Assembly: GCF_001719165.1 (NCBI RefSeq)
Contig: NZ_CP017057.1
Coordinates: 2,846,501 to 2,910,500, forward strand
DNA length: 64,000 nt
Direction: 5' to 3'
Origin: Erythrobacter litoralis
Lineage (GTDB): Bacteria; Pseudomonadota; Alphaproteobacteria; Sphingomonadales; Sphingomonadaceae
In this document: positions 35,955 to 62,288 of the stretch, one piece after another
Layout: every line of letters begins with the position of its first letter
Numbering within the stretch: the stretch's first letter is position 1
Position numbers and translations under genes: made by a program
The notes under the pieces: generated by a model
Databases searched by the model: none
What the model was told of the DNA's origin: nothing
What the model saw: only the letters and a program-made list of their open reading frames with translations

Positions 35955-38900
35955 CTAGCGCCCGGGCGCGCCCCAGCCTCCGCCGCCGGGGGTGAGGATG
36001 ACGAAGGTATCGCCCGGTTCGACACGGGCCGATCCGGTCGCGCCGAGTTCGACCCGGTTGCCGTCCTCGCGCTCGACCCAGTTCGCTCCCGGCGCTGCAT
36101 CGCCACCGCCGCAAATGCCGCGCGGCGGCACCGCGCGGCGATTGGCGAGCATGTTGGCGCGCATGGCTTCGAGGAAGGTGACGCGGCGCTCGACCCCCTC
36201 GCCGCCCCTGTGAAACCCCTCACCGCCCGAACCTTCGCGCACGGCGAAGCGATCCAGCCGGACCGGGAGGCGCGTTTCGAGAATTTCCGGATCGGTCAGC
36301 CGGCTGTTGGTCATGTGGGTCTGCACCGCGTCGGTCCCGTCATGGTCGGGGCCCGCACCCGATCCGCCCGCGATTGTTTCGTAATATTGGTGTTCGTCAT
36401 TGCCGAATGTGAAATTGTTCATCGTGCCCTGGCTCGGCGCAAGGCGACCCGTCGCGGCGAACAGCGCGTCGGTGACGACCTGGCTCGTCTCGACATTGCC
36501 CGCCACCACCGCCGCGCCGGGTCTCGGGTTGAGCATCGAACCTTCGGGAACGATCAGTTCGACCGGGCGCAGGCAGCCGTCGTTCATGGGGATTTCGTCG
36601 TCGATGAGCGTGCGAAGGACATAGAGCGAGGCCGCACGCGTAATCGAGCGCGGGGCGTTGAAATTGCCCTCGTGCTGCGGGCTCGTCCCGGTGAAGTCGA
36701 ACACGGCGCTGCGGGCCTCGCGGTCGATCCGGATCGCCACCCTGACGGTCAGGCCATTGTCCATCGGATATTCGAACGCGCCGTCCTCCAGACCGCCCAG
36801 CAGGCGGCGCACGCTTTCGGCGGCGTTGTCGATGACGTGGGCCATATAGGCGGCAACGACCTCGCCCCCCTGCTCCGCCGCCGCGCCGCGCAGCAATTCC
36901 GCCCCGCGGGTGCAGGCGGCGAGTTGGGCGCGAAGGTCGGAGATGTTGCGCGCCGGGTTGCGCGCGGGGTGCTGCGCATCGGCAAGCTTGGCGCGCATCT
37001 CGGCCTCGCGGAAATGTCCCTCGTCGACGAGCAGGAAATTGTCGATCAGGACTCCTTCCTCGACGATCGTACGGCTTTCGGGCGGCATCGATCCGGGCGC
37101 GATTCCGCCGATATCGGCATGGTGCCCGCGCGCGGCGACGAAGGCGCCCGGTTCGTCGGCCTCGTCATCGTAGAAGACGGGAACGATCACCGTGATATCG
37201 GGCAAGTGCGTGCCGCCGCGGAAAGGATCGTTGAGGACATAGGCATCGCCCCGTCGAAACCCGCGTCCATCGCGGCTTTTGCCCCGCACCTCGATCACCC
37301 GCGCGATGCTGTCACCCATGCTGCCGAGATGCACGGGAATGTGCGGCGCGTTGGCGATCAGCGCTCCGGAGGCATCGAACAGCGCGCAGGAGAAATCGAG
37401 CCGCTCCTTGATGTTCACGCTCGTTGCGGTCGAACGCAGGACGACGCCCATTTCCTCGGCGATCGCCATGAACAGGTTGTTGAAGATTTCGAGCCTGACA
37501 GGATCGACCGCGGTTCCCATCGCCTGCTCGCGCTGCAAGGGCACCCTGCGGGTGAGGACAAGGCTGCCCTCTTCGGCGAGGCGCGCCTGCCAGCCGGGTT
37601 CGATGACGGTGGTGGAGCCCGGATCGATCACCAGAGCGGGGCCGTCCACTGCCTCTCCTCCAGCCATTTCGGCGCCCATCGCGGCTCGTTCCACCGTGCG
37701 CCAGTCGCCCGAAGCCTCGCCCGAAACGGCAAGCGGTTCGGCCTGCGCCGCGCCAAGCCCGCCACTGGTCCCGCTCGCTTCGACGCTCAACGCATCGACG
37801 ATGATCGCGGCAGCGTCGTCCGAATAGCCGTAGAGCTTCGCGTGCAGCGCGCGGAATTCGGCGGCCATGTCCGCAGGTTCCCCGACCGGAACGGTCAGCT
37901 TGCTGTCGCTCCCTGCAAACCGCAGGCGGGCGCGGCGTTCGACGTGGATAGCCTCTTGGGCGATGTCCTGCGCGATCAGCGTTCCGCGCGCTTGCTCGAC
38001 CAGTTCCCCGAGCGGCCCGGACACATCCGCGCCCAGTTCCTCGCCGAAACTCACTTCCCGGATCGCCTTTACCGGCGCAAGGCCGATGCCATAGGCGGAC
38101 AATATCCCCGCAAGCGGGTGGACCAGCACCGTCTCGATCCCGAGCCGGTCCGCCACCCGCACGGCGTGCTGACCGCCCGCCCCGCCGAAACAGGCGAGCG
38201 CATAGGTCGTAACGTCATGACCGCGCGCGACCGATATCTTGCGGATCGCGTTCGCCATGTTGTCGACCGCAATGTCGAGGAAGCCCTCGGCAATGTCCTC
38301 GAGGCTCCTTGGTTCGGGCAGGCGCTCCGCCACCTCCTCCAGCCGGTGCCGCGCCGCTCCCCGGTCGAGCGGTTCGTCGCCGCCGGGTCCGAAGACGCGC
38401 GGGAAAAAGGCGGGATCGAGCCTCCCGAGGAAGAGATTGCAGTCTGTGACGGTAAGTGGCCCGCCCTTGCGGTAGCAGGCGGGGCCGGGGTCCGCACCCG
38501 CGCTGTCCGGACCGACGCGGAAACGCGATCCATCGAAGGAGCAGATCGACCCGCCTCCCGCCGCAACGGTATGGATCTGCATCATGGGCGCGGCGACCCG
38601 CACGCCTGCGACGACATTGTCGCCGGTGAGTTCATATTCGCCTGCGTAGTGCGCGACATCGGTGCTGGTCCCACCCATGTCGAAACCGATGAGTTTCCCA
38701 TTGCCGAGCGGTGCGCTCGCCGCGACCATGCCAACGACGCCGCCTGCGGGCCCGGACAGGATCGCGTCCTTGCCCCGGAACGCGCCGACCTCGGCCAACC
38801 CGCCATTGGACTGCATGAAGCGAAGCCGTCCGGCGTTGGGTAATTCGGCCTGCAATCCGTCGGTGTAGCGTTTCAGAACCGGCGAGAGATAGGCATCGAC

Positions 38901-39512
38901 CACGCTGGTATCCCCGCGCGCAACGATGCCGATGAGCGGAGCGACCTCGTGGCTTGCGCTGACCTGCGCGAAGCCGATCTCGCGCGCGATTTCCGCCAGC
39001 CGTTTCTCATGATCGCGGAAATGCCAGCCATGCATGAGGACGATGGCGAGCGCATCACAGCCCTCGCCCCGCAGCGCCTCGAGTCGCTGCCGGGCTGCCT
39101 CTTCATCGAGCGGCGTCAGCACCTTCCCGGCTGCGCTAACGCGCTCGTCCACCTCGACCACCCAGCGCGGCAATTGTTCGGGCAGGACGATGTGCCGCGC
39201 GAAGATTTCGGGCCGCGCCTGCGTGCCGATCCTGAGCACGTCGGCAAAGCCGCGCGTCGTCACCAGCGCAAGGGGTTCGCCCTTGCGTTCGAGCAGCGCA
39301 TTGGTCGCAACCGTAGTGCCGATGCGCAGTTCCGCGACCGGCGCGTCCGGGCCATGAGCCTCCATCAGCCGCCTGATCGCTTCGCTCGCCGCGTCGGCAT
39401 AATGGCCGGGCTTTTCGGACAGCAGCTTGTCGGTGACCAACCGCCCATCCGGCGTCACCGCGACTACATCGGTGAAGGTGCCGCCCCGGTCGATCGCGAA
39501 GCGCCACGCCAT
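35955..39512 (-). CDS. Fused 5-oxoprolinase (ATP-hydrolysing), HyuA-HyuB type
   Basis: A 1185-residue protein that joins the hydantoinase A part ([68 protein letters not shown]) to the hydantoinase B part (from about residue 690: [63 protein letters not shown] and the closing [12 protein letters not shown]). Full fusion and gene length are as in eukaryotic-type 5-oxoprolinase, which opens 5-oxoproline to glutamate with ATP in glutathione turnover. ATG 39512 is preferred over 39533 because of GGACGG upstream and the canonical start of the ATPase domain. A different, unfused HyuA/HyuB pair lies at 58.3-62.3 kb. Confidence 0.92.
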
Positions 39513-51028: not shown

Positions 51029-51901
51029 ATGGCAAGCGAATGGTGCATCGGGATCATCGGCGGGTCCGGGCTCTACAACATTGATGGGCTCGAAGACGCG
51101 CAGTGGATCGCGATCGACACGCCCTGGGGCGAGCCTTCGGACGAGATCCTGTGCGGGCGGATCGGCAAGGTGAAGCTACGTTTTCTCCCTCGCCACGGAC
51201 GCGGGCACCCGATTTCCCCGACCGAGCTCAACGGGCGTGCCAATATCGACGCGCTGAAACGCGCGGGCTGCACCGACATCCTCGCCCTGTCGGCGGTCGG
51301 CTCCCTGCGCGAGGAGATCGAGCCGGGCCGCTTCGCCGTGGTCGAGCAATTCATCGACCGCACGTTCAATCGCCCCTCGACCTTCTTCACCAGCGGCTTC
51401 GTCACGCACGTGTCGATGGCCGATCCGACCTGCCCGCGCCTTTCGACCATGATGGCGAAGGCGATCAGCGCGGCAAAGGGCAAGGTCGCGGTCGGCGCGA
51501 CCTATCTCGCCATGGAAGGCCCGCAATTCTCGACCCGCGCGGAAAGCCGGATGTATCGCCAGTGGGGCGCCGACATCATCGGCATGACCGCTTTGCCCGA
51601 GGCCAAGCTCGCCCGTGAGGCGGAGCTGCCCTATGCGCTCGTCGGCATGGTCACCGATTACGATTGCTGGCGCGAAGGCGAAGCGGTCGGAGTTGCCGAG
51701 GTCGTCGCGCAGATGCAGGCCAACGGCAAGCTCGCGCGCGAGGCGGTGCGGCGCTTCGTCGAGGCGCTGCCCGGCAAGCGCGAGCCATCCCCGATCGACA
51801 CTGCATTGGACGATGCCGTCATCACCGCGCCGGACGAACACGATCCCGATTTGCTGACGAAGCTCGACGCGGTCGCCGGGCGGCTGTTCGCGGAAGGCTA
51901 G
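51029..51901 (+). CDS. mtnP: S-methyl-5'-thioadenosine phosphorylase
   Basis: A 290-residue enzyme of the methionine salvage pathway that splits 5'-methylthioadenosine into adenine and methylthioribose-1-phosphate. Phosphate-binding IGIIGGSGLYNIDGL, the PRHGRGHPISPTELNGRANIDALKRAGC stretch, SAVGSLREEIEPG, the substrate region AMEGPQFSTRAESRMYRQWGADIIGMTALPEAKLAREAEL and VTDYDCW are all hallmarks of MtnP. ATG 51029 is the start. It ends overlapping the stop of the cysteine hydrolase gene on the other strand by 4 bases. Confidence 0.96.
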   Translation: MASEWCIGIIGGSGLYNIDGLEDAQWIAIDTPWGEPSDEILCGRIGKVKLRFLPRHGRGHPISPTELNGRANIDALKRAGCTDILALSAVGSLREEIEPGRFAVVEQFIDRTFNRPSTFFTSGFVTHVSMADPTCPRLSTMMAKAISAAKGKVAVGATYLAMEGPQFSTRAESRMYRQWGADIIGMTALPEAKLAREAELPYALVGMVTDYDCWREGEAVGVAEVVAQMQANGKLAREAVRRFVEALPGKREPSPIDTALDDAVITAPDEHDPDLLTKLDAVAGRLFAEG

Positions 51902-52536
51902 TTCCGGGCGATTTGCGCGAAATGCTCCTTCGCCTCGGCCAGGCGCACGACATCACCGTATTTCGCGTTCATGTCGAACAGGTTGGCGCGGTGGACGCCC
52001 TCGTGGCGGTCCCCGACGGCTTCCTCGACCACCAGCGGAATGAAGCCGTGCTGGCAGGCATCGACGCAGCTTGCGCGGATGCAGCCGCTGGTGGACACTC
52101 CGGCCAGCAGGACGCTGTCATGCCCGCCCGCGGTCAGGGTCGAGGCGAGCGAGGTGCCGAAGAAGGCGCTTGCATATTGCTTGGAGACGACGAGTTCGTC
52201 CTCGGCCGGCTCCAGCCCCTTGGCCCATGCTCCCATGGCGTTTCCGCGCACGAAATTGGCGAGCGCGCCGACCTTCTGGGCAAAGCGGCCCCCGTCGCGC
52301 ATCGAGGGGTGAAAGACGACATTGGTGTAGATCACCGGGACGCCCGCTGCCCTTGCCGCCGCGCGCAGTTCGATCGCGGCTGCAAGGGTGTCTTCGACCC
52401 CGGCGTGGAGGGGGCTGCCGGGGTCGAAATAGGCTTCGACCATGTCGATGATGATGAGAGCGGGACGCTCCCCGAAACCGATCCGGCCTTCGAAGACACC
52501 GGCATAATTGCTCTTTGCGTCTTCCTTTTCACCCAC
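51898..52536 (-). CDS. Isochorismatase-family cysteine hydrolase (N-carbamoylsarcosine amidohydrolase-like)
   Basis: A 212-residue cysteine hydrolase with the family triad Asp31 (ALIIIDMVEAYF), Lys119 (ELVVSKQYASAFFGT) and Cys152 (GVSTSGCIRASCVDA). The SKQYASAFFGTSLAS, STSGCIRASCVDACQHGF and VEEAVGDRHEGVHRANLFDMNAKYGDV stretches are typical of the N-carbamoylsarcosine amidohydrolase branch, which removes the carbamoyl group from N-carbamoyl amino acids. The start is GTG 52536 with AAGGAGC 8 bases upstream. It lies 46 bases after the TonB receptor gene on the same strand and is likely in its operon, together with HyuA/HyuB under the same GntR control. Confidence 0.88.
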   Translation of the reverse strand: MGEKEDAKSNYAGVFEGRIGFGERPALIIIDMVEAYFDPGSPLHAGVEDTLAAAIELRAAARAAGVPVIYTNVVFHPSMRDGGRFAQKVGALANFVRGNAMGAWAKGLEPAEDELVVSKQYASAFFGTSLASTLTAGGHDSVLLAGVSTSGCIRASCVDACQHGFIPLVVEEAVGDRHEGVHRANLFDMNAKYGDVVRLAEAKEHFAQIARN

Positions 52537-52582
52537 CCGAAGGGCTCCTTTCGCATGCTCGGCCGGATCGGGCCGCTTACCG

Positions 52583-55117
52583 TCAGAAGTTGTAGCCGAG
52601 CTCCACCCCGAACCGGCGCAGGCCGCCGGGCGACAGGAACGAGCCGCCGAATTCGACCGCCGGGATGACCTCGTTGAGATAGCGCTCATTGGTGAGGTTC
52701 TCGGCAAAGGCGGTGACGCGGAAACTGCCGGTCTCGATCCCGACGCGCAGGTCGAGAATGCCGAATTCGTCGCGCTCGGTGACCGAATATTCGGCATCGC
52801 CGACCTCGGCCGGAAGCTGCAGGGCCGATCCCGGCAGCAAACCGCTGAACAGGGTCGGGTTGGCATCGTCCTGAACCGTATGGAACCACGTCGGACCCGT
52901 CAGGCGATAATCGGCGCGGACCACGAAATCGATCGCGTCGGTGATCGGCTGCACAACCTGGGTGCCGATGTTGACAGTGTAATCGGCGGTGTAGGGGCTT
53001 TCATTGCCGATCGTGCTCGGGCGCGAGGAATTCGCCTTGATCTCGCTCTCGGTCACGTTGGCCGAACCGAAGATGTCCCAGCCGTCGATGATCTCGAAGG
53101 CAAGGTTCGCCTCGGCCCCGTAAAGCTCAACCTCGTCGATGTTCGAAACCACGCGCAGCAGGCCGAAACCGCCGACGAAGAATTCGAAGAACTGCATGTC
53201 GTCGACCTGGGTGTAATAGCCCGCGACATCGAAGGTCAGGCGGCCGCCGAGCGCGGACCCCTTGATCCCGGCCTCGAACGCGCTCGACACTTCCTTGTCA
53301 TAGACGTCTTCGATCAGCACGTTGGTGCCGATGAACTGGTTGAACGCCTGGTCGACGATTGCGGCCGAGCCCTGGTTGTTGAACCCGCCCGATTTGAAGC
53401 CGATACCCCAGTTGGCGTAAAGGTTAACGTCGTCGCTGAGCTCATAGCGAAGCGAAACCTTGGGCTGGAACTGGCGGAAGGTTTCCTGCTGATCCGGGAG
53501 CGGCTGGACCACCCCGTTCACGACCTGCTGGCCGGGATTGATCGGCCCGCCGGTGAAGGGATCGAACACCGCCGGCACGAGGCTGGTCGCGCGCCGTTCC
53601 TCGATGTCGTAGCGCCCGGCAAGGCCGATCTCGAAGCGGTCGCTCACTTCGTAATCGAGCGAGGCGAAGGCGGCATAGACATCGGTGTCGAAAGCGTCGT
53701 TGTAGAGCTGACTGGTGGGATTGATCGTGTCCGGCCCGTTGTAGAGCTGCGGAATGACACCCTGGCCGAGATCGGCACCGATGCTGACCCCGACTTCGCG
53801 GTCGATGTGGAGATAATAGGCGCCGACCTGCCATTCGAGCGGTCCGTCGCCGTTCGAGGCAAGGCGGATTTCGCCCGAAATATCGCTCTGGTTGCGGACC
53901 TGCAGCTGGGTCCCGTCGCACGTCGTCGGGCTGAACGCGCCGAAGGTCGAACCGGTGGCGGGATCGAAGATGAACGGCACCGGCGTCTGGCCGATGAAAG
54001 TCGGCGCGTTGAGCGGGAAGCCGGTCAGTTCAGCCGTGCTGGCAAAGCACGCATTCGACGCCGCGACCGAGGCCGGGGTCGCGCCGGGGAAGGTGAAGCG
54101 CGCGAAGTCCGCCGAAGTCCCGTCGGCGACGAGGAACTGGTCGACATCGCTGTAGAGCGCCCAGGCCGTCAGCGTCGCGAAGTCGAATTCATGCTCGATC
54201 TTGGCCGAGACCTCGAAGGTCTCCTGCGTGTTGATCGGGCGGATATTGCCGTAGAAATCGAAGGGATGCTCGTTCACGTCCTCGTAGAAGGCGGGGTCCA
54301 CGCCCGCGAAATTGGGCAAGTGGAACGAGGTGTTGTAGGCGATCGACGCGCCGTCGAGATCGGCATAGCGCGCCTTGATGTCGAGCTCGGTCCTGGGACC
54401 GAGATCGGCGACGAAGCGCCCGTCGACCGACCAGATTTCCTGGTTGTCGACGAAATCGCCGTCGAGGAAGCGATTGAAGAAGAACCCGTCGGTGTGGAAA
54501 TAGCTGCCCGACAGGACGAGGCCCGCGCTCTCGCCGATCGGCGTCGAGATATAGCCGTTGGCGCGATAGGTGTTGTCCTCAGCCGCGCTGACCAGCACGC
54601 TGCCTTCGAGGATGTCGCCGGGCTTCACTGTCTGGATGACGATCGCGCCGGCCGCGGCGTTGCGCCCGTAAAGCGCGCCCTGCGGACCTTTCAGGATCTC
54701 GATCTGGCGCAGCGTGCCCTGGTCCTGGTTGAGCTGGGCGGTGTTGGTCTTGAGAATGCCGTCGACCACCAGCGCGACCGAGCTTTCCGCGTCGCGCGCG
54801 CCGTTGATGCCGCGGATGTTGATCTGGGTGTCGCCCGCCTCGGCCGTGCCGGTGACGATGGTCACGCCGGGGGTGAGCTGGACGAATTCGTCGGCCCGCT
54901 CGATCCCGGTGCGCTGCAGCGTTTCGGCGGTGAAGACGGTGACCGCGGCGGGCACTTCGGAAAGCGTTTCCGACTGGCGCCGCGCGGTGACGATGATCGC
55001 GCCCGGCTCCTCCGCCTCGGCGCGCTCGGCCTCGCTGTCCTGCGCCATGGCCGGAGCCGCGCACAGCAACGCGCCCCATGCGGCGCTCCCGGCGAGAATG
55101 GTCCTGAAATTCCTCAT
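52583..55117 (-). CDS. TonB-dependent receptor, GntR-controlled
   Basis: An 844-residue receptor of the sphingomonad type: signal peptide (MRNFRTILAGSAAWGALLCAAPAMAQ), TonB box (AIIVTARRQ), plug domain (QINIRGINGARDAESSVALVVDGIL, RQIEILKGPQGALYGRNAAAGAIVIQT) and a barrel that ends in a terminal Phe (RRFGVELGYNF). Start ATG 55117 follows GGGGAG and sits at the signal peptide; the longer open frame upstream is spurious. Its promoter region holds the palindrome TTGTATACAA (55264-55273), shared with the other operon of the catabolic cluster, so the receptor probably takes up the cluster's substrate. Confidence 0.94.
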   Translation of the reverse strand: MRNFRTILAGSAAWGALLCAAPAMAQDSEAERAEAEEPGAIIVTARRQSETLSEVPAAVTVFTAETLQRTGIERADEFVQLTPGVTIVTGTAEAGDTQINIRGINGARDAESSVALVVDGILKTNTAQLNQDQGTLRQIEILKGPQGALYGRNAAAGAIVIQTVKPGDILEGSVLVSAAEDNTYRANGYISTPIGESAGLVLSGSYFHTDGFFFNRFLDGDFVDNQEIWSVDGRFVADLGPRTELDIKARYADLDGASIAYNTSFHLPNFAGVDPAFYEDVNEHPFDFYGNIRPINTQETFEVSAKIEHEFDFATLTAWALYSDVDQFLVADGTSADFARFTFPGATPASVAASNACFASTAELTGFPLNAPTFIGQTPVPFIFDPATGSTFGAFSPTTCDGTQLQVRNQSDISGEIRLASNGDGPLEWQVGAYYLHIDREVGVSIGADLGQGVIPQLYNGPDTINPTSQLYNDAFDTDVYAAFASLDYEVSDRFEIGLAGRYDIEERRATSLVPAVFDPFTGGPINPGQQVVNGVVQPLPDQQETFRQFQPKVSLRYELSDDVNLYANWGIGFKSGGFNNQGSAAIVDQAFNQFIGTNVLIEDVYDKEVSSAFEAGIKGSALGGRLTFDVAGYYTQVDDMQFFEFFVGGFGLLRVVSNIDEVELYGAEANLAFEIIDGWDIFGSANVTESEIKANSSRPSTIGNESPYTADYTVNIGTQVVQPITDAIDFVVRADYRLTGPTWFHTVQDDANPTLFSGLLPGSALQLPAEVGDAEYSVTERDEFGILDLRVGIETGSFRVTAFAENLTNERYLNEVIPAVEFGGSFLSPGGLRRFGVELGYNF

Positions 55118-55262
55118 TTGCGACGACTCCCCTATAAGTCCGGGCGATTGCGGTCGCCCGGCGGGTACCGGCCGGCTGCCCGGCCCGGTGCTGCACGAGG
55201 GGGCGCGGCACGGCGCCCGACAAGCCCCGAACCATGCCGCCTCCCCCGGATTGGAGAGGCTT

Positions 55263-55274
55263 ATTGTATACAAT
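55263..55274. promoter_or_regulatory. GntR/FCD operator candidate, copy 1
   Basis: ATTGTATACAAT is a perfect 12-base palindrome between the divergent TonB receptor (55117) and gntR (55371) genes. TTGTATACAA is a well-known core for FCD-type GntR regulators. The 16 bases TTGTATACAATTTGCG recur exactly at 57323-57338. Confidence 0.82.
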
Positions 55275-55370
55275 TTGCGCGCGTCAAGGAAAATTGGTAG
55301 CGCTGACACGTTGGTTCACGGGAAGGGCGCAAGTGATGATTTCGGGTAACACCTCGGCCGGGCCGGCCCG

Positions 55371-56042
55371 GTGACGCGCGCGTCGGACAGGGCCTATGCC
55401 AAGATCCGCGCCTTCCTTCTGGGCGGCGGCGCGCATCCGGGCGAACAGGTGACCGAGGAACGGCTCGCCGAGATCGCCGGGGTCAGCCGGACCCCGGTGC
55501 GCGAGGCGATGCGCCGGCTCGAGAACGAACTTCTGCTGGTGCGCAGCCCGTCCAAGCGGATCTTCGTCGCCGACTGGTCGCGCGACGACATCGACGAGAT
55601 GTTCACGCTGCGCCAGATGCTGGAGGGCCACGCAGCAAAGCGCGCCGCAACGCGGCTCACCGCGCAGGAGATCGACCGGCTGGAAGCGGTCAACGGGTCC
55701 CTGCGCGAGGCGATCGCGGGCGAACCGCCCGACATCGTGCGCTTTCTCGAGGCCAACAGGCGTTTCCATGACATCATCACCGGGGCGGCGCGCTCGCCGC
55801 GGCTGGGACAGGTGCTTGCCATGCTGGTCGAACAGCCGGTGCTTGTGCGCACGGCGCGGCATTATTCAGTGCGCGACCTGCGCCAGTCCGCGCGCGACCA
55901 CGACGAGCTGATTGCCGCCTTCCGGGCAGGCGATCCCGACTGGGCTCAGGCGGTGATGAAGAGCCACCTGCGCCGCGCCTTCCACACCTTCGCCGATGCG
56001 GCGGAGGCGGAAGGCGGGGCTGCGAAGGACGCGGCCGAATAG
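55371..56042 (+). CDS. GntR family regulator, FCD (FadR) subfamily
   Basis: A 223-residue regulator with an N-terminal winged helix (PGEQVTEERLAEIAGVSRTPVREAMRRLENELLLVRSPSKRIFVADWSRDDIDEMFTLRQMLEG) and a helical FCD effector domain in which the metal-ligand pattern is visible (FLEANRRFHDIITGAA, SARDHDELIAAFRAGD, VMKSHLRRAF). It probably represses the TonB receptor-hydrolase operon, itself, the CoA-transferase and the HMG-CoA lyase-hyuAB operon through the TTGTATACAA boxes, and lets go on binding an acid or CoA-related ligand (inference). The start is GTG 55371; no better ATG exists. Convergent with the CoA-transferase gene, 3 bases away. Confidence 0.92.
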   Translation: MTRASDRAYAKIRAFLLGGGAHPGEQVTEERLAEIAGVSRTPVREAMRRLENELLLVRSPSKRIFVADWSRDDIDEMFTLRQMLEGHAAKRAATRLTAQEIDRLEAVNGSLREAIAGEPPDIVRFLEANRRFHDIITGAARSPRLGQVLAMLVEQPVLVRTARHYSVRDLRQSARDHDELIAAFRAGDPDWAQAVMKSHLRRAFHTFADAAEAEGGAAKDAAE

Positions 56043-56045
56043 GGC

Positions 56046-57227
56046 CTATATGATCCCGCGTTCGGCAAGGTCGGACATGGCGCGGCTGTCCATGCCGAGC
56101 AGTTCGCCATAGACTTCTTCATTGTGCTGGCCGAGCTCTGGTCCGACCCATTCGATGCCGCCCGGCGTCGCCGAAAGTTTCGGGGCGACGTTCTGCATCC
56201 TGAAATTCTCGTATTTGGGATGCGGCACCTCGACGATCGCCTCGCGCGCGACAAAATGCGGGTCATCGAGCATTTCCGGAGCGCGGTAGATATTGCCCGC
56301 TGGAACGCCGTGTTCCTCACACAATTCAAGCACTTCCTTGCTGGTGCGCTGCTTCGTCCACTCGCCGATCATGTCGTCGAGTTCGGCCTGCCGCTCACCG
56401 CGCGCGACATGGCTGTTGTAGCGCGGATCATCGCCCAGTTCGGCCATGCCCATCATCGTCGCCATGCGCTTCCACACGCTGTCCTGGTTGCCCGCGACCA
56501 GAACGCTGCCGTCCTTGGTCGGATAGACGTTGGAGGGCGCGATCTTGGGCAGGATCGATCCGGTCCGCTCGCGGATGTGGCCGGTCACGGTGTATTCGGG
56601 CACGGTCGATTCCATCATCGCCAGAACCGCTTCGTAGATGGCCGAATCGACCACCTGCCCCTTGCCCGTCCTATGCCGGTGTTCGAGCGCCATCAGCGCA
56701 CCGAGACAGGCATAGGTCGCGGCGAGCGAATCGCCGATGGAAAGTCCCGCGCGGCTCGGCGGGCGGTCGGGTTCGCCCGCGATGTAGCGCATCCCGCCCA
56801 TCGCCTCGCCGATCCCGCCATAGCCCGCGCGCGAGGAATAGGGGCCGGTCTGGCCGTAGCCCGAGACGCGGATCATGATCAGCGCCTCGTTGATCGCGGA
56901 GAGTTCCTCCCAGCCGAGATTCCAGCGCTCCAGCGTGCCCGGGCGAAAATTCTCGAGCAGGAAATCGGCCTTGGCGGCGAGCTGCCTGACAATCGCCTGC
57001 CCTTCCTTTTCGCGCAGGTTGAGCGTGATCGACTTCTTGCCCCGCGCAACGACCGAGAACCACAGCGGGACGCCCTGTCCCCAATTGCGCATCGCATCGC
57101 CCACCTTCGGCGGTTCGACCTTGATCACCTCGGCCCCGTGATCGGCCATCAACTGGCCGCAGAAAGGTCCTGCGATAAGCTGGCCCATCTCGATCAAACG
57201 CAGTCCCGACAGAGCGCCCTCGGCCAT
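56046..57227 (-). CDS. CaiB/BaiF family CoA-transferase
   Basis: A 393-residue family III CoA-transferase: GLRLIEMGQLIAGPFCGQLMADHGAEVIKVEPPKVGDAMRNWG, LNLREKEGQAIVRQLAAKADFLLENFRPGTLERWNLGW, GYGQTGPYSSRAGYGGIGEAMGGMRYIAGEPDRPP and the catalytic Asp in AGLSIGDSLAATYACLGALMALEHR. It moves CoA between acids, which would activate the pathway's carboxylic acid intermediate. ATG 57227 follows AGAAAGGGATCAC. It is divergent from the HMG-CoA-lyase-like gene, and their shared promoter region holds the second TTGTATACAA box. Confidence 0.92.
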   Translation of the reverse strand: MAEGALSGLRLIEMGQLIAGPFCGQLMADHGAEVIKVEPPKVGDAMRNWGQGVPLWFSVVARGKKSITLNLREKEGQAIVRQLAAKADFLLENFRPGTLERWNLGWEELSAINEALIMIRVSGYGQTGPYSSRAGYGGIGEAMGGMRYIAGEPDRPPSRAGLSIGDSLAATYACLGALMALEHRHRTGKGQVVDSAIYEAVLAMMESTVPEYTVTGHIRERTGSILPKIAPSNVYPTKDGSVLVAGNQDSVWKRMATMMGMAELGDDPRYNSHVARGERQAELDDMIGEWTKQRTSKEVLELCEEHGVPAGNIYRAPEMLDDPHFVAREAIVEVPHPKYENFRMQNVAPKLSATPGGIEWVGPELGQHNEEVYGELLGMDSRAMSDLAERGII

Positions 57228-57322
57228 GTGATCCCTTTCTTCTGGTGGCAAAGCATGTCGCGCCCGAAGACCCGGTGGCGGCCCCCGCGCTGAGATCGGG
57301 CCTATACAGAGCGAATTTGCAT

Positions 57323-57332
57323 TTGTATACAA
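57323..57332. promoter_or_regulatory. GntR/FCD operator candidate, copy 2
   Basis: TTGTATACAA, a perfect 10-base palindrome in the 156-base region between the divergent CoA-transferase (57227) and HMG-CoA-lyase-like (57384) genes. The identity with the first site extends to TTGTATACAATTTGCG (57323-57338). Confidence 0.82.
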
Positions 57333-57383
57333 TTTGCGTATCGAGCCAATGACCGATTCCAGCCGAGCGAGCGTGCAGCCTTC

Positions 57384-58304
57384 ATGTCCGACCCCATCGA
57401 GATCCTCGAAGTAGGCCCGCGCGACGGGCTCCAGAACGAGGCGGAGATCGTCTCGACCGCTGACAAGCTCGCGCTGATCGGGGCGATGATCGGATATGGC
57501 GCGCGTCGGCTGGAAGTGGCCAGCTTCGTCCATCCGGGTCGCGTGCCGCAGATGGCCGATGCGGAAGACGTCATCGCCGCCCTGCCCGATCGCGAGGACG
57601 TGCAGTATATCGGCCTCACCCTCAACAAGCGCGGGATCATGCGCGCGCTCGCCACCCGCGAGGGCGGCCCCAAAGACGGAAAAGGGCGCGGCGTCGACCA
57701 GGCCGGCTGCGTGATCGTCGCAAGCGACACGTTCGGGCAGAAGAACCAGGGCCAGTCCATCGCCGAAGGCATCGCAGAAACACGCGACATGCTGCGCTTC
57801 GCCCGCGCCGAAGGGCTGTCGGCGCAGGTCACGATCTCCGCCGCATTCGGCTGTCCGTTCGAAGGCGAGGTGAAGCCTGAGACGGTTCTCGCCATTGCCG
57901 AGGAGCTCGCCGCCGAGGACCCGGCCGAAATCGCGCTCGCCGACACGGTGGGCGTGGGCGTTCCCGCGCAGGTCACGGACCTGTTCGGGCGGCTCGGTGA
58001 AATGCTCGCGGGGCGGATACCCATGCGCTGCCATTTCCACGACACGCGCGCGACCGGCATCGCCAATGCCTGGGCGGCATATGAGGCAGGCGTGCGCACC
58101 TTCGACGCCTCGCTGGGCGGGCTCGGCGGATGCCCCTTCGCCCCGCGCGCAACGGGCAATATCGCGACCGAGGATCTCGTCTACATGATGGACAATTCGC
58201 ACATAGCCACGAATATCGATCTCGCAGCGGCGATCGCGGCCAACCGCGCCTTTGCCCAGGTGCTGGGGCGCGAATTGCCCTCGCGCGTGGCGCGGGCGGC
58301 CTAG
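57384..58304 (+). CDS. Hydroxymethylglutaryl-CoA lyase-like enzyme
   Basis: A 306-residue TIM-barrel lyase of the HMG-CoA lyase group: EVGPRDGLQNE (catalytic Arg and metal Asp), RLEVASFVHPGRVPQMADAEDV, ISAAFGCPFEG, IALADTVGVGVP, the metal ligands HFHDT and the G-loop GGLGGCPFAPRATGNIATEDLVYM with the catalytic Cys near residue 250. It cleaves a 3-hydroxy-3-methyl (or similarly branched) acyl-CoA into acetyl-CoA and a keto compound. The inserted stretch EGGPKDGKGRGVDQAG is longer than in standard HMG-CoA lyase, so the natural substrate may differ. First gene of the plus-strand operon with hyuA and hyuB; the next gene starts 41 bases later. Confidence 0.9.
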   Translation: MSDPIEILEVGPRDGLQNEAEIVSTADKLALIGAMIGYGARRLEVASFVHPGRVPQMADAEDVIAALPDREDVQYIGLTLNKRGIMRALATREGGPKDGKGRGVDQAGCVIVASDTFGQKNQGQSIAEGIAETRDMLRFARAEGLSAQVTISAAFGCPFEGEVKPETVLAIAEELAAEDPAEIALADTVGVGVPAQVTDLFGRLGEMLAGRIPMRCHFHDTRATGIANAWAAYEAGVRTFDASLGGLGGCPFAPRATGNIATEDLVYMMDNSHIATNIDLAAAIAANRAFAQVLGRELPSRVARAA

Positions 58305-58345
58305 GGGAACATTCCGGCCGCCGATGCGGCAACAGGGGAGATTGC

Positions 58346-60397
58346 ATGACTTACAGGCTTGGCGTCGATGTCGGGGGGACCTTCACCGACCTGCTGCTGT
58401 TCAACGAGGACAGCGGGCGCTTCTGGCGGCACAAGACGCCCTCGACCCCGCACGACAGCTCCGAAGGGATCCTGAACGGCGTCAAGGCGATCACCGAACA
58501 GGCGGGCGTCTCGCTGAAGGACGTGGTCTATTTCCTCCACGGCACGACGGTCGCGACCAATGCCGTGCTCGAAGGCAAGGGCGCCAAGGTCGGGCTGATC
58601 ACGACCGAGGGCTACCGCGACGTCATGCAGATCGCGCGCAGCTTCGTCCCCGGCGGGCTTGCGGCATGGATCGTGTGGCCCAAGCCGCAGCCGCTCGCCC
58701 ATCTCGAGGACACGCTCGAAGTGCCCGGTCGGATGGACGCCGACGGCAACGAGGTGCGCCCGCTCGACGAAGACGCGGTGCGCGCTGTCCTGCAAAAGCT
58801 GAAAGGCCAGGGGATCGAGGCGCTGACGGTCAGCCTCATCAACGCCTATGTCAACGGCGCGCATGAAAAGCGGATCGGGGAGATCGCGGCCGAGGAACTG
58901 CCCGGCATTCCGGTTTCGCTCAGCCACGAGGTCCTGCCCGAAATGCAGGAATACGAACGCACGCTCTCGACCGTTGCCAACGCCGCGGTGCGCCCGGTGG
59001 TGAGCAGATATGTCTCGAACCTGCGGACCAAGCTTTCGGACGAAGGTTTCGGCGGCAGGCTCTCGCTGCTGCGTTCCGATGGCGGGCTGATGAGCAGCGA
59101 GAAGGCCGAGGAGCATCCGGTCAACATCCTTATGTCCGGCCCCGCGGGCGGCGTCACCGGCGCGCTGTGGGTGGCGAAGAATGCGGGGCTCAAGAACATC
59201 CTGACGCTCGATGTCGGCGGAACCTCGACCGACGTCGCGCTGATCGAGGGACTTGAGCCGCGGCGCGAGCGCACCACCGATGTCGGCCACCTGTCGGTGC
59301 GCGCCTCATCGCTCGACGTGAAGACCGTGGGCGCGGGCGGCGGCTCGATCGCGCACGTGCCCGAACTGACCAAGGCGCTGCGCGTCGGCCCGGAAAGCGC
59401 GGGCGCGGTGCCCGGACCGGTGGCATACGGCAAGGGCGGCGAAGTGCCGACCGTGACCGATGCCAACGTCGTGCTCGGTTACCTTCCCGAAGACCTTCTC
59501 GGCGGCAGCTTCCGGCTCGACCGCGAGGCGGCGAAGGTGGCGGTGCAGACCATTGCCGATGCGCTCGGCGTCAGCCTGATGGAGGCGGCGCGCGGCATCA
59601 TCGACATCGTCAATGAAAACATGTTCGGCGCGCTGCGGATGATCAGCGTCCAGCAGGGTTACGATCCGCGCGAATTCGCGCTGATGGGCTTCGGCGGCGC
59701 CGGTCCGCTCCATGTCAACGCGGTCGCGCGGCTGATGGGTTCGTGGCCCGCGGTCTCGCCCGTTTCCCCCGGCGTGCTGTGCGCGCTGGGCGATGCGACG
59801 ACGCGGATGCGCACCGAGACCGCGCGCAGCTTTTCGCGCCTCGCGAAGGACACGGCGATTTCCGATCTCCACGCGGTGCTCGATGAAATGGCCGCGCAGA
59901 CCCGCGGCGAGCTGATCGCGGACGGGGTCGCGGAGGACCAGATAACCACCGAATTCGAAGTCGACATCCGCTATGCCGGGCAGGCCTTCGAGGTCCCGCT
60001 CACCATCGACAAGGTCGTGCTGGAGAAGGACGGGATCGAAGGCATCCTTGCCCGGTTCGACGAGGAGCACCTGCGCCTGTTCACCTTCAACATGGAAACG
60101 CCGCACGAGATCGTGAACCTGCGCGCCGTGGCGCTGGGCCAGCCCCCCTCCCTTCCAGCGGCCGAACTGCCCAAGGGCGACGGCGATCCGAGCGGTGCGA
60201 AGATCCGCGACCACAAGCTCTGGATGGACGGGCGCGAACAGTCGGCCGTGATCTACGACCGTTCGAAGCTCAGGCAGGGCGACCGCATCCCCGGCCCCGC
60301 CATCATCACCGAAATGGATTCGACCACGCTCGTCGAAAGCGGCTGCATTGCCACGATCGACGCGGTCGGTAACATCCTCATCAATCCGGAGGGCTGA
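58346..60397 (+). CDS. hyuA: Hydantoinase/oxoprolinase/acetone-carboxylase family, A subunit
   Basis: A 683-residue ATP-dependent subunit with an actin-like fold: [88 protein letters not shown], and FGGAGPLHVNAVARLMG. The family includes N-methylhydantoinase, 5-oxoprolinase, caprolactamase and acetone or acetophenone carboxylases; all phosphorylate their substrate. ATG 58346 follows GGGGAG. It is followed 4 bases later by its B subunit. The specific substrate is not readable from the sequence; the GntR-controlled neighbours suggest either cyclic amide opening or ketone carboxylation. Confidence 0.92.
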   Translation: MTYRLGVDVGGTFTDLLLFNEDSGRFWRHKTPSTPHDSSEGILNGVKAITEQAGVSLKDVVYFLHGTTVATNAVLEGKGAKVGLITTEGYRDVMQIARSFVPGGLAAWIVWPKPQPLAHLEDTLEVPGRMDADGNEVRPLDEDAVRAVLQKLKGQGIEALTVSLINAYVNGAHEKRIGEIAAEELPGIPVSLSHEVLPEMQEYERTLSTVANAAVRPVVSRYVSNLRTKLSDEGFGGRLSLLRSDGGLMSSEKAEEHPVNILMSGPAGGVTGALWVAKNAGLKNILTLDVGGTSTDVALIEGLEPRRERTTDVGHLSVRASSLDVKTVGAGGGSIAHVPELTKALRVGPESAGAVPGPVAYGKGGEVPTVTDANVVLGYLPEDLLGGSFRLDREAAKVAVQTIADALGVSLMEAARGIIDIVNENMFGALRMISVQQGYDPREFALMGFGGAGPLHVNAVARLMGSWPAVSPVSPGVLCALGDATTRMRTETARSFSRLAKDTAISDLHAVLDEMAAQTRGELIADGVAEDQITTEFEVDIRYAGQAFEVPLTIDKVVLEKDGIEGILARFDEEHLRLFTFNMETPHEIVNLRAVALGQPPSLPAAELPKGDGDPSGAKIRDHKLWMDGREQSAVIYDRSKLRQGDRIPGPAIITEMDSTTLVESGCIATIDAVGNILINPEG

Positions 60398-60401
60398 CAT
60401 C

Positions 60402-62288
60402 ATGCCTGCACGCATCGTCGAAACCAACGACACGCCGTTCAACAAGGTCGCGATCGACCCCGTCACGCTCGACATCATCGAGAACGCGCTGCGAAACGCC
60501 CGGATCGAGATGGACGCGACGCTGGTTCGCACCGCGATGAGCCCCGGCATCCGCGAACAGGGCGATGCCTTCCCGATGATCGCGGACCCTGCGGGCAAGA
60601 TGATCGTCGGCCAGTTCGGCAGCTTCATCGACGGCTTCCTGAGAGGCTTCGACGATACGCTGGAGGATGGCGACCTCATCCTTCTGTCCGACCCCTATTC
60701 CTGCGAAGGGGCGATCAGCCATTCGAACGACTGGCTGGTCCTGCTCCCCGTGTTCAAGGACGGGCGGCTGATCGCCTATACCGCGATGTTCGGCCACCAG
60801 TCCGACATCGGCGGCATGGTCCCCGGCTCCATGCCAATCGGCGCGTCCTCGATCTTCGAGGAAGGCGTGCGCATCCCGCCGGTCAAGATCTGGAAGCAGG
60901 GCGAATACAACCACGACCTGATGAAGCTGGTGATGCACCAGACGAGGAAGCCCGACTGGTGCCAGGCCGATCTCAACGCGCTCATCGCCTCGTGCCGCGT
61001 CGCCAGCCGCCGGGTGATCGAGATGGCGGAGCGTTTCGGCGACGATGTCTATTATTCCGCCACGCAGGAACTGCTCGATCGCAACCACCGCGCGATGAAG
61101 GCGCTGATCTCCATGGCCGTGGCCGAGGAGCCGGTGAGCTTCGAGGATTACATCTGCGACGACGGCAAGGGTTTCGGCCCCTACCGGATCAAGTGCACGA
61201 TGCGGCGCGAGGGCGACAAGGTCATCCTCGATTTCGACGGCACCGACCCGCAGAGCGCGGCCTCGATCAATTTCTACCTCAACGAGAACATGTTCAAGAT
61301 GTTCTTCGGGATTTACATGATCATGGTCTTCGACCCGCAGATCATGTTCAATGACGGGTTCTACGACCTGATCGAAGTGCGCATCCCCGAAGGATCGCTG
61401 CTGAAGCCGAAATTCCCCGCCGCCCTGTCGGGCCGCACCCATGCGCTGGGCAGGATCTTCGACATATTGGGCGGGCTGCTCGGTCAGAAGACGCCCGAAT
61501 TCCTCAATGCCGCCGGGTTCTCGTCCTCCCCGCACCTGTTCTATTCGGGATGGGACAATCGCAAGAACACGCGCGAGTGGTTCCAGCTTTTCCAGATCGG
61601 CTTCGGCGGCATTCCGGGCCGGCCGCTGGGCGACGGGCCGGACGGGCATTCACTGTGGCCGGGGTTCACGAACGTGCCCAACGAATTCCTAGAGCGGTAC
61701 TTCCCGCTGCGGATCGAGCGCTATTCGACCGAGCCCGACAGCGGCGGGGCGGGGCTTCACCGGGGCGGCAACGGCATCCATATGACCTATCGCTTCCTCG
61801 CCGATGGCAATATCGCGATCCATGACGATCGCTGGTTCGTGCCGCCCTGGGGGGTCAATGGCGGCCATCCCGGCATGCGCGCGAAGAAGGTTCTCGAGCG
61901 TGTCGATGGGACGGCCGAGATCGTCGGCAACAAGGTCGAGGATGTCGAGGTGCGCGCCGGAGACCTCCTCCATTTCATCACCTGGGGCGGCGGAGGCTGG
62001 GGCGACCCGCTCGAACGCGATCCGGAACTCGTCGGCCTCGAAATCCGGCAGGGCCTCGTCACCAGCGACGGCGCGAAGGCCTATGGCGTCGTGGCGGACG
62101 ACAAGGGCAATGTCGATGCGGACGCGACCACGAAGCTGCGCGAGGAAATGAAGGCCTCGCGCGGGGAATTGCCGCTGTTCGATTACGGCCCCGGCATCGA
62201 GAAACTGCGCGCCGCGTGCGAGACCGAAACCGGCCTTCCCGCGCCGCGCCAGCCCGAATGGGGCGATCTCGCGGAAGCTGCCGAATAG
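60402..62288 (+). CDS. hyuB: Hydantoinase/oxoprolinase/acetone-carboxylase family, B subunit
   Basis: A 628-residue partner of HyuA: PVTLDIIENALRNARIEMDATLVRTAMSPGIREQGDAFPMIAD (canonical N-terminus), LSDPYSCEGAISHSNDWLVLLPVF, GHQSDIGGMVPGSMPIGASSIFEEGVRIPPVK, FDFDGTDPQSAASINFYLNENMF and the glycine-rich end HFITWGGGGWGDPLERDPELV. The latter part (about residues 440-540) is longer than in the fused oxoprolinase, and the segment DGHSLWPGFTNVPNEFLERYFPLRIERYST is found in the acetone-carboxylase/hydantoinase B branch. ATG 60402 is 4 bases after the hyuA stop. It ends the operon, convergent with the LolA-like gene. Confidence 0.92.
   Translation: MPARIVETNDTPFNKVAIDPVTLDIIENALRNARIEMDATLVRTAMSPGIREQGDAFPMIADPAGKMIVGQFGSFIDGFLRGFDDTLEDGDLILLSDPYSCEGAISHSNDWLVLLPVFKDGRLIAYTAMFGHQSDIGGMVPGSMPIGASSIFEEGVRIPPVKIWKQGEYNHDLMKLVMHQTRKPDWCQADLNALIASCRVASRRVIEMAERFGDDVYYSATQELLDRNHRAMKALISMAVAEEPVSFEDYICDDGKGFGPYRIKCTMRREGDKVILDFDGTDPQSAASINFYLNENMFKMFFGIYMIMVFDPQIMFNDGFYDLIEVRIPEGSLLKPKFPAALSGRTHALGRIFDILGGLLGQKTPEFLNAAGFSSSPHLFYSGWDNRKNTREWFQLFQIGFGGIPGRPLGDGPDGHSLWPGFTNVPNEFLERYFPLRIERYSTEPDSGGAGLHRGGNGIHMTYRFLADGNIAIHDDRWFVPPWGVNGGHPGMRAKKVLERVDGTAEIVGNKVEDVEVRAGDLLHFITWGGGGWGDPLERDPELVGLEIRQGLVTSDGAKAYGVVADDKGNVDADATTKLREEMKASRGELPLFDYGPGIEKLRAACETETGLPAPRQPEWGDLAEAAE

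Follow-up and report, generated by a model that had tools for sequence, protein, structure and literature searches.

A GntR-controlled gene cluster of Erythrobacter litoralis with a predicted role in the catabolism of a small nitrogen-containing ring compound

A 64,000-nucleotide stretch of the Erythrobacter litoralis genome (contig NZ_CP017057.1, positions 2,846,501 to 2,910,500; hereafter the window) carries a cluster in which a TonB-dependent outer-membrane receptor (TBDR) and a GntR-type regulator are grouped with a hydantoinase-like pair (HyuA/HyuB), an isochorismatase-family amidohydrolase (ISO), a coenzyme A (CoA) transferase (CaiB) and a 3-hydroxy-3-methylglutaryl (HMG)-CoA lyase-like enzyme (HMGL), which raises the question of whether these genes serve one pathway and, if so, on what compound that pathway acts. 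Our reading, to which we give a probability of about 0.6, is that the cluster would be a catabolic module, complete in itself and under GntR control, that breaks down a small ring compound containing nitrogen, with a cyclic imide or a lactam as the likeliest candidate. We arrived at it from the gene content, the protein families, the catalytic residues, the conservation of the gene set and of a palindromic box, and a link to a second, PuuE-like and hydratase-containing gene set, all of which were observed directly; the substrate class, the order of the steps and repression by the regulator we infer. The seven genes that an initial annotation had named were all present in the window and, with their starts corrected, are as follows, together with the two boxes:

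51898-52536, minus strand: ISO, isochorismatase-family amidohydrolase (PF00857), with a GTG start and an AGGAG-type site before the GTG
52583-55117, minus strand: TBDR, TonB-dependent outer-membrane receptor (PF07715, PF00593)
55264-55273: GntR box 1, palindrome TTGTATACAA, between the TBDR gene and gntR, conserved upstream of module genes in relatives
55371-56042, plus strand: GntR/FCD-type transcriptional regulator (PF00392, PF07729), with a GTG start
56046-57227, minus strand: class III (CaiB/Frc) CoA-transferase, caiB (PF02515)
57323-57332: GntR box 2, palindrome TTGTATACAA, between caiB and hmgL, with the same core as box 1
57384-58304, plus strand: HMGL, HMG-CoA-lyase-like (DRE-TIM) acyl-CoA lyase (NCBIfam NF004283, PDB 1ydo)
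58346-60397, plus strand: HyuA, ATP-binding subunit of a predicted ring-opening hydrolase (PF05378, PF01968, PF19278)
60402-62288, plus strand: HyuB, predicted metal-binding hydrolysis subunit (PF02538)

The coordinates and the intergenic gaps (41 bases between the HMGL and HyuA genes, 4 between those of HyuA and HyuB, and 46 between those of TBDR and ISO) fit two operons, each leading away from its box, with a lone divergent gene (gntR and caiB, respectively) on the opposite side, and ISO is likely translated together with the receptor gene. On its other side, the ISO gene converges with a methylthioadenosine (MTA) phosphorylase gene (51029-51901, plus strand), the two overlapping by 4 bases at 51898-51901, and this neighbourhood is preserved in the relatives' loci L004, L010, L025 and L112.

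HyuA and HyuB belong to the same superfamily as the acetone and acetophenone carboxylases, with homologous alpha and beta subunits, and the pair might therefore carboxylate a ketone, the resulting acid then being activated and cleaved. However, hydrolases clearly outscored carboxylases: HyuA matched the N-methylhydantoinase 7hk5 with 464 bits and the hydantoinase/oxoprolinase pair 6yra, which we take to be a caprolactamase structure, with 410 bits, compared with 323 bits for the acetophenone carboxylase subunit and 252 bits for the acetone carboxylase subunit, and the corresponding values for HyuB were 234, 212, 127 and 69 bits. Furthermore, the cluster encodes two subunits in the order AB (HyuA of 683 and HyuB of 628 amino acids), and no gamma subunit gene was found in it. 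According to the available portion of PMC5214803, subunit number and lengths separate the hydantoinases from the ketone carboxylases, which have a gamma and also alpha' and epsilon subunits and larger alpha and beta subunits; by these criteria, HyuAB falls in the hydantoinase/amidohydrolase branch. A ketone carboxylation route would, in addition, leave the amidohydrolase without a role. We consider such a route very unlikely, and the carboxylase reading of HyuAB was rejected on subunit number and scores. The initial annotation had proposed a regulated pathway comprising the receptor, GntR, HyuAB, ISO, CaiB and HMGL, which stands, with ketone carboxylation as an alternative, which fell with the missing gamma gene and the higher hydrolase scores.

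The residues of both subunits agree with this placement. HyuA carries phosphate motifs at residues 8 and 289 and an adenosine motif, GAVPGP, at residue 353 (ATP-site motifs as named in a portion of PMC8453981), and residues D55, H107, D110 and H132 of HyuB, which align with the CapB zinc ligands D41, H99, D102 and H124, were invariant in 8 aligned sequences, one of them partial. ATP motifs, a D-H-D-H metal site and an AB pair are features of the hydantoinase/oxoprolinase (ATP-dependent lactamase) family, and, as judged from sequence, HyuA/HyuB is a two-subunit enzyme of the ATP-dependent lactamase/hydantoinase type and not a ketone carboxylase. As a two-subunit ring-opening hydrolase with an ATP site and a D-H-D-H metal site, it resembles the caprolactamase CapAB and the 5-oxoprolinases as they are presented in that portion of PMC8453981; unlike CapAB, it missed the NCBIfam caprolactamase equivalog cut-offs (HyuA 553 bits to CapA and HyuB 226 bits to CapB; cut-offs 1000 and 1000). 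Elsewhere in the window, a fused HyuA-HyuB-type protein of 1185 amino acids (35955-39512, minus strand), the first part of which is 36% identical to HyuA, is probably a 5-oxoprolinase-like enzyme, its function having been assigned by eye.

The remaining three enzymes would act on the open chain. ISO matched N-carbamoylsarcosine amidohydrolase structures with 156 and 113 bits and 3ot4/3uao, which we take to be the maleamate amidohydrolase NicF, with 110 bits. Its residues D31, K119, C152 and R154 were invariant in 9 aligned sequences and provide the Asp-Lys-Cys triad and the GCxR motif of the N-carbamoylsarcosine/maleamate amidohydrolase clade, the roles of these residues being our assumption. 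CaiB matched PF02515 with 419 bits over the whole profile (1-366 of 366); the best NCBIfam model, succinate--glutarate CoA-transferase, gave 293 bits, under its equivalog cut-off of 750, and succinate--hydroxymethylglutarate CoA-transferase was the third kind of match, with 208 bits. HMGL passed the NCBIfam subfamily model NF004283 (287 bits; cut-off 246) and matched PDB 1ydo with 200 bits, and its residues R13, D14, E44, H217, H219, C250 and N259, whose catalytic roles we presume from the human enzyme, were invariant in 16 aligned sequences. A leucine-type HMG-CoA lyase elsewhere in the genome was considered and set aside: the only three PF00682 matches are the module HMGL, the HMGL of the second set described below and a gene at 1770786, which was unmatched by the HMGL protein query and which we tentatively take for a LeuA-like synthase.

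Conserved synteny in relatives had been set beforehand as a check on the initial annotation, and the gene set proved to be kept in tens of genera. HyuB was matched in 43 genera, and we compared its neighbourhood in one genome per genus (loci L096, L099, L103 and L110 included), requiring at least 45% identity for HMGL, 55% for CaiB, 40% for ISO, 35% for GntR and 45% for TBDR. Beside HyuB, CaiB was found in 38 genera, HMGL in 37, ISO in 32, GntR in 32 and TBDR in 30, and all seven genes were found in 25 (with the receptor at 35% identity for this count). Gene order varied, with CaiB either divergent from HMGL as in the window or located together with ISO downstream of HyuB, and the CaiB and ISO proteins were of different identity classes across loci, while the set of functions stayed constant; that these functions remain together despite such variation argues that HyuAB, ISO, CaiB and HMGL serve one pathway.

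A different picture would be that CaiB and HMGL alone degrade HMG or a mevalonate-type acid, while HyuAB and ISO share the regulator but act on an unrelated substrate. This was weighed in a further sample, made up of the 80 top-ranking loci that HMGL retrieved from public genomes; Erythrobacter, Porphyrobacter, Blastomonas and Kordiimonas are represented in it, as are some gammaproteobacterial assemblies. Among these, CaiB of at least 55% identity lay beside HMGL in 19 of the 32 loci without HyuA, which, like the 208-bit match of CaiB mentioned above, speaks for a separate CaiB-HMGL unit. The other components followed HyuA: ISO was present in 36 of the 48 loci with HyuA versus 1 of the 32 without, TBDR in 38 versus 1, GntR in 43 versus 6 and the box in 42 versus 2. 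ISO, the receptor and the box thus track HyuA rather than HMGL. Against the separate-unit explanation, HyuAB, ISO, CaiB and HMGL stay together through rearrangements, with HMGL, CaiB and ISO all beside HyuB in 30 of the 43 genera, and we regard it as quite improbable.

The grouping is mirrored at the promoters. As the initial annotation had noticed, the two divergent promoters share an identical 16-base word, TTGTATACAATTTGCG, exact copies of which lie at 55264-55279 and 57323-57338 (plus strand). With up to 3 mismatches allowed, the window contained 3 matches to it, one of which is box 1 read in reverse; none of 100 shuffles gave 3 matches (shuffle mean 0.08). The 3.25-Mb genome contains the 10-base-pair palindrome TTGTATACAA three times, at the two divergent module promoters and directly behind an nrdB-like gene (named by eye), the last being probably a chance copy. 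As a control, the TTGTATACAA pattern read backwards occurred once in the genome. Conservation of the boxes in relatives, likewise fixed beforehand as a check, was borne out across the 43-genus sample: 804,982 bases of HyuB neighbourhoods contained 44 cores, where a first-order Markov estimate gives an expectation of 0.14, and every one of them lay within 450 base pairs upstream of a module-gene start (racemase-like and SnoaL-like genes, described below, were counted as module genes here and were the nearest gene for 2 of the 44 boxes). The flanking bases were A or T in 42 and 41 of the 44 cores, so that what is conserved is the palindrome flanked on each side by A or T; the TTTGCG tail of the window is not. 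The box was present in 29 of the 32 loci with a GntR gene compared with 3 of the 11 without. On the shuffles, the genome count and the upstream placement in relatives, chance was rejected as the origin of the box. A regulator gene together with a palindromic box at the module promoters, both kept in relatives, is what characterises a GntR regulon, and the GntR protein is predicted to bind TTGTATACAA at both divergent promoters, presumably as a repressor, and to be released once an intermediate appears. DNA folding of promoter 1 gave no signal above shuffles.

A pointer to the substrate class comes from a second catabolic set (L086:2460-10832, corresponding to genome positions 2946459-2954831), whose PuuE-like gene lies 39.6 kb from hyuB. 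It encodes a PuuE-like polysaccharide-deacetylase-family protein, another isochorismatase-type hydrolase (STSGCVR motif), an alpha/beta hydrolase and LeuC- and LeuD-type proteins, further a small protein that matches DUF3598 weakly, under the cut-off, additional copies of HMGL and CaiB, and a VOC protein. In order, these would open the ring, hydrolyse the amide, hydrate a maleate-type double bond, transfer CoA and cleave the thioester with the lyase. Among the deacetylase-family enzymes described as opening a cyclic imide or ureide is the PuuE allantoinase (PMC3084791, in the part available), and in the Aspergillus nidulans nicotinate pathway, as far as an excerpt of PMC9304392 describes it, the deacetylase-family imidase HxnM and then the amidase HxnN convert an imide ring through a half-amide to a hydroxy-diacid. 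The predicted sequence of reactions is alike, although HxnM has the deacetylase fold and is not of the HyuAB type, and CoA activation and a lyase step are absent from that excerpt.

To quantify the association of the two sets, we used 297 genomes of the order (Sphingomonadales) with at least 90% completeness, in which HyuB (E <=1e-100) was found in 96 and the PuuE-like protein (E <=1e-60) in 50. HyuB was present in 35 of the 50 genomes with the PuuE-like protein compared with 61 of the 247 without it (p 2e-9, Fisher test with genomes taken as independent and kinship uncorrected); with the window's genus left out, the PuuE-like protein was accompanied by HyuB in 27 of 42 genomes (p 1.5e-8, genomes again as independent). 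In 19 of the 35 genomes with both, HyuB and the PuuE-like protein lay within 60 kb on one contig, 4 to 51 kb apart, and in five genomes of one genus (L092-L096), in which a second PuuE-like paralogue follows the first, the sets were 4-6 kb apart. The linkage makes a common substrate class for both sets likely, short of proving one pathway. The hydratase suggests a dicarboxylic acid with a double bond, and hence an imide or an unsaturated lactam rather than a hydantoin.

The linked LeuC/LeuD-type pair passed the isopropylmalate dehydratase subfamily models (643 bits over a cut-off of 531 and 212 over 167) and the leuD model (175 over 116), and stayed under the cut-off of the leuC equivalog-domain model (528 under 560). 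An aconitase-like gene lies near 574 kb, and the genome has another pair of neighbouring LeuC/LeuD-type genes near 1011 kb, which makes the linked pair an extra copy. For this reason, ordinary leuCD was set aside as the meaning of the linked hydratase, although the models alone still say isopropylmalate dehydratase.

The genome stretch between the two sets (2910000-2944000; L090 and L089) looks by eye like one large catabolic region, with a second GntR gene, two CaiB genes, an acyl-CoA dehydrogenase, MaoC- and CitE-like genes, two MmgE/PrpD-like genes, an amidase, another PuuE-like gene, TonB receptors and a methyltransferase with a small partner. In one genome, a VanA-type Rieske oxygenase gene (PF00355, PF19112; L111:6516-7640, minus strand) is found near the PuuE-like set, and a second Rieske-like gene was seen by eye at L111 17099-18280.

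The nearest solved relatives of the module proteins nevertheless raise a hydantoin as substrate: HyuAB would open a 5-substituted or N-methyl hydantoin, ISO would cleave the N-carbamoyl amino acid, and CaiB and HMGL would process the carbon skeleton after an unlinked deamination. The best solved-structure matches for HyuA, HyuB and ISO are N-methylhydantoinase and N-carbamoylsarcosine amidohydrolase, that is, the two families, in the same order, of the N-methylhydantoin (creatinine) route. That route ends in sarcosine, and to our knowledge no CoA-transferase or HMGL-type lyase belongs to it, whereas the module adds both. Furthermore, a hydantoin-racemase-like gene (PF01177; relatives 3qvj/3qvk) lies close to the module in 8 genera of the 43-genus sample and in 23 of the 80 best HMGL loci; it and two SnoaL-like genes are often found with the receptor gene and gntR in relatives, usually between them. 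In all 31 racemase-like copies inspected (L004:6540-7292, minus strand, and 30 further loci), however, both expected catalytic cysteines, which are present in the relative 3qvj, are replaced by Thr and Ser, so that the protein is unlikely to be a racemase; it might supply a missing pathway step. A search for it in the window's genome, made without a positive control, returned no match. Nor did we notice an aminotransferase among the neighbouring genes that recur across the 51 loci clustered together with the window, where some recurrent clusters are unannotated and short-chain dehydrogenases recur in 3 to 4 loci. The hydantoin route would end in an amino acid, which is of no use to the LeuCD-type hydratase of the linked set or to an HMGL-type lyase, and this tips the balance towards an imide or lactam. 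We regard a hydantoin as an unlikely substrate.

Under the preferred imide or lactam reading, the pathway would run as follows. The TonB receptor would import the compound, or else a precursor of it, through the outer membrane; HyuA would activate the ring amide with ATP, and the metal site of HyuB would hydrolyse it. ISO would then free ammonia from the resulting half-amide, whose amide group has a carboxylate close by; its relatives that hydrolyse N-carbamoylsarcosine and maleamate carry out reactions of this kind. CaiB would transfer CoA, probably from succinyl-CoA, onto a hydroxy-diacid, and the HMGL-type lyase would cut the thioester, which would resemble citramalyl-CoA or HMG-CoA, to give an oxo acid and an acyl-CoA, both of which could enter central metabolism.

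Several observations weigh against this pathway. The module genes include no recognisable hydratase or hydroxylase, and 61 of the 96 HyuB genomes had no PuuE-like match at the threshold used; the beta-hydroxyl group that an HMGL-type lyase requires must therefore be part of the substrate from the start or be added by the product of an unlinked gene. Conversely, 15 of the 50 genomes with the PuuE-like protein lacked HyuB at the thresholds used, and of the 35 genomes with both, 6 have the sets more than 60 kb apart and 10 have them on different contigs. The PuuE-like protein scored 109.5 bits with the NCBIfam PuuE allantoinase model, far under the cut-off of 424.6, and the linked LeuC/LeuD-type pair passes the isopropylmalate dehydratase subfamily cut-offs, so that an alkylmaleate-hydratase role would be assigned to it by context. 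CaiB misses its specific model, and the model that HMGL passes is a general one. In the 43-genus sample, HMGL was absent from 6 and ISO from 11 HyuB loci, partly because of nearby contig ends; two of the 43 HyuB proteins (L135 and L150) are just 56-57% identical and may be paralogues; the exact box is absent from 3 of the 32 loci carrying GntR; and HMGL and CaiB diverge more between loci than HyuA and HyuB do. Finally, the racemase-like gene near the module could point to a hydantoin, but both of its expected cysteines are replaced and it had no match in the window's genome.

Comparison with described routes shows parts of the proposed pathway in other combinations. The (R)-citramalyl-CoA lyase of Chloroflexus is HMGL-like. 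In the (R)-citramalate branch, as given in a portion of PMC8307300, succinyl-CoA:citramalate CoA-transferase (Enzyme Commission number, EC, 2.8.3.20) and (R)-citramalyl-CoA lyase (EC 4.1.3.46) act on a hydroxy-diacid much as CaiB and HMGL would, a likeness in described function; unlike that branch, the module has a ring-opening hydrolase and an amidohydrolase attached. The iaa route of indoleacetate degradation in Aromatoleum, in the accessible parts of PMC5214803 and PMC8360864, combines a HyuAB-type gamma-lactamase with a CoA-transferase, and by analogy HyuAB could open an oxindole-type lactam in an aerobic indoleacetate-type route, with CaiB acting like IaaL and HMGL cutting the acetate side chain. 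In Aromatoleum, however, the CoA ester is rearranged by a mutase, whereas the module has an HMGL-type lyase and an amidohydrolase, for which this route leaves no role. No indole oxygenase or CoA ligase was noticed beside the module in the neighbourhoods viewed, although no systematic search was made, and we consider an indoleacetate-type route distinctly unlikely.

In the open-licence literature in PubMed Central (PMC), we found no description of a pathway joining this gene set, in line with the initial annotation, which had known of none; PMC5986895, listed for a combination of such genes, mentions neither N-methylhydantoinase nor HMG-CoA lyase. On haematinic acid in bacteria, chlorophyll degradation in Erythrobacter, imidases and indoleacetate, the same literature offered no more than background. 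Each of the protein families is known already; it is their assembly, regulation and breadth that we did not find described. That an ATP-dependent lactamase/hydantoinase is combined here with an HMG-CoA-lyase-type enzyme and a CoA-transferase leads to the prediction of a substrate class that can be named, and the presence of HyuB in 96 of the 297 genomes, with gene set and box kept across tens of genera, indicates that the module answers a common need.

One tentative proposal for that need, to which we give low odds, is that the module and the linked imidase-hydratase set could form a bacterial route for ring fragments of tetrapyrroles (chlorophyll, bacteriochlorophyll and haem). Its substrates would be alkylmaleimides, haematinic acid among them, and lactams resembling bilirubin oxidation products, which would be opened, deaminated and cut; by our own reckoning, hydrated haematinic acid would give pyruvate and glutaryl-CoA or 2-oxoglutarate and propionyl-CoA. 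According to parts of PMC7318184, chlorophyll oxidation yields haematinic acid and bilirubin-oxidation-type products, which are lactams, while maleimides from chlorophyll are cited there from older work and were not detected in that study. The window's own genome carries photosynthetic reaction-centre genes (PF00124), and HyuB was present in 42 of the 59 genomes with PF00124 compared with 54 of the 238 without (21 of 38 versus 50 of 231 outside the window's genus; 21 of 21 versus 4 of 7 within it). A control catabolic family, LigB, was rarer with reaction-centre genes (15 of 59 versus 116 of 238 without), a difference that was not significant outside the genus (14 of 38 versus 116 of 231, p 0.16). 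Kinship and an aquatic, algae-associated habitat could explain the pattern of HyuB and phototrophy, and for this reason the tetrapyrrole proposal is kept at low odds. If true, it would raise the question by what means bacteria reuse the carbon and nitrogen contained in chlorophyll rings.

Further genes were seen beside the module in individual relatives. A family of methyltransferases dependent on S-adenosylmethionine is represented near HyuAB in L055 (1564-2757) and L080 (5840-6988), both assigned by eye to the family of the L089 gene (15968-17152); a methyltransferase at L106:9067-10254 matches PF13649 and is 75% identical to that gene. In one genus, hyuA and hyuB are separated by a gene (L126, about 8170-8598) whose product shares 36% identity with the DUF3598-like protein of L086. 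Just past ISO in three Blastomonas loci lies a gene recognised by eye as HemN-like (oxygen-independent coproporphyrinogen oxidase-type), which may simply border a neighbouring gene group:

L022:17081-18424, minus strand: HemN-like gene (by eye)
L023:16914-18257, minus strand: HemN-like gene (by eye)
L027:16938-18281, minus strand: HemN-like gene (by eye)

TRAP-transporter-like genes, also recognised by eye, are located beside HyuB in L097, L099 and L103.

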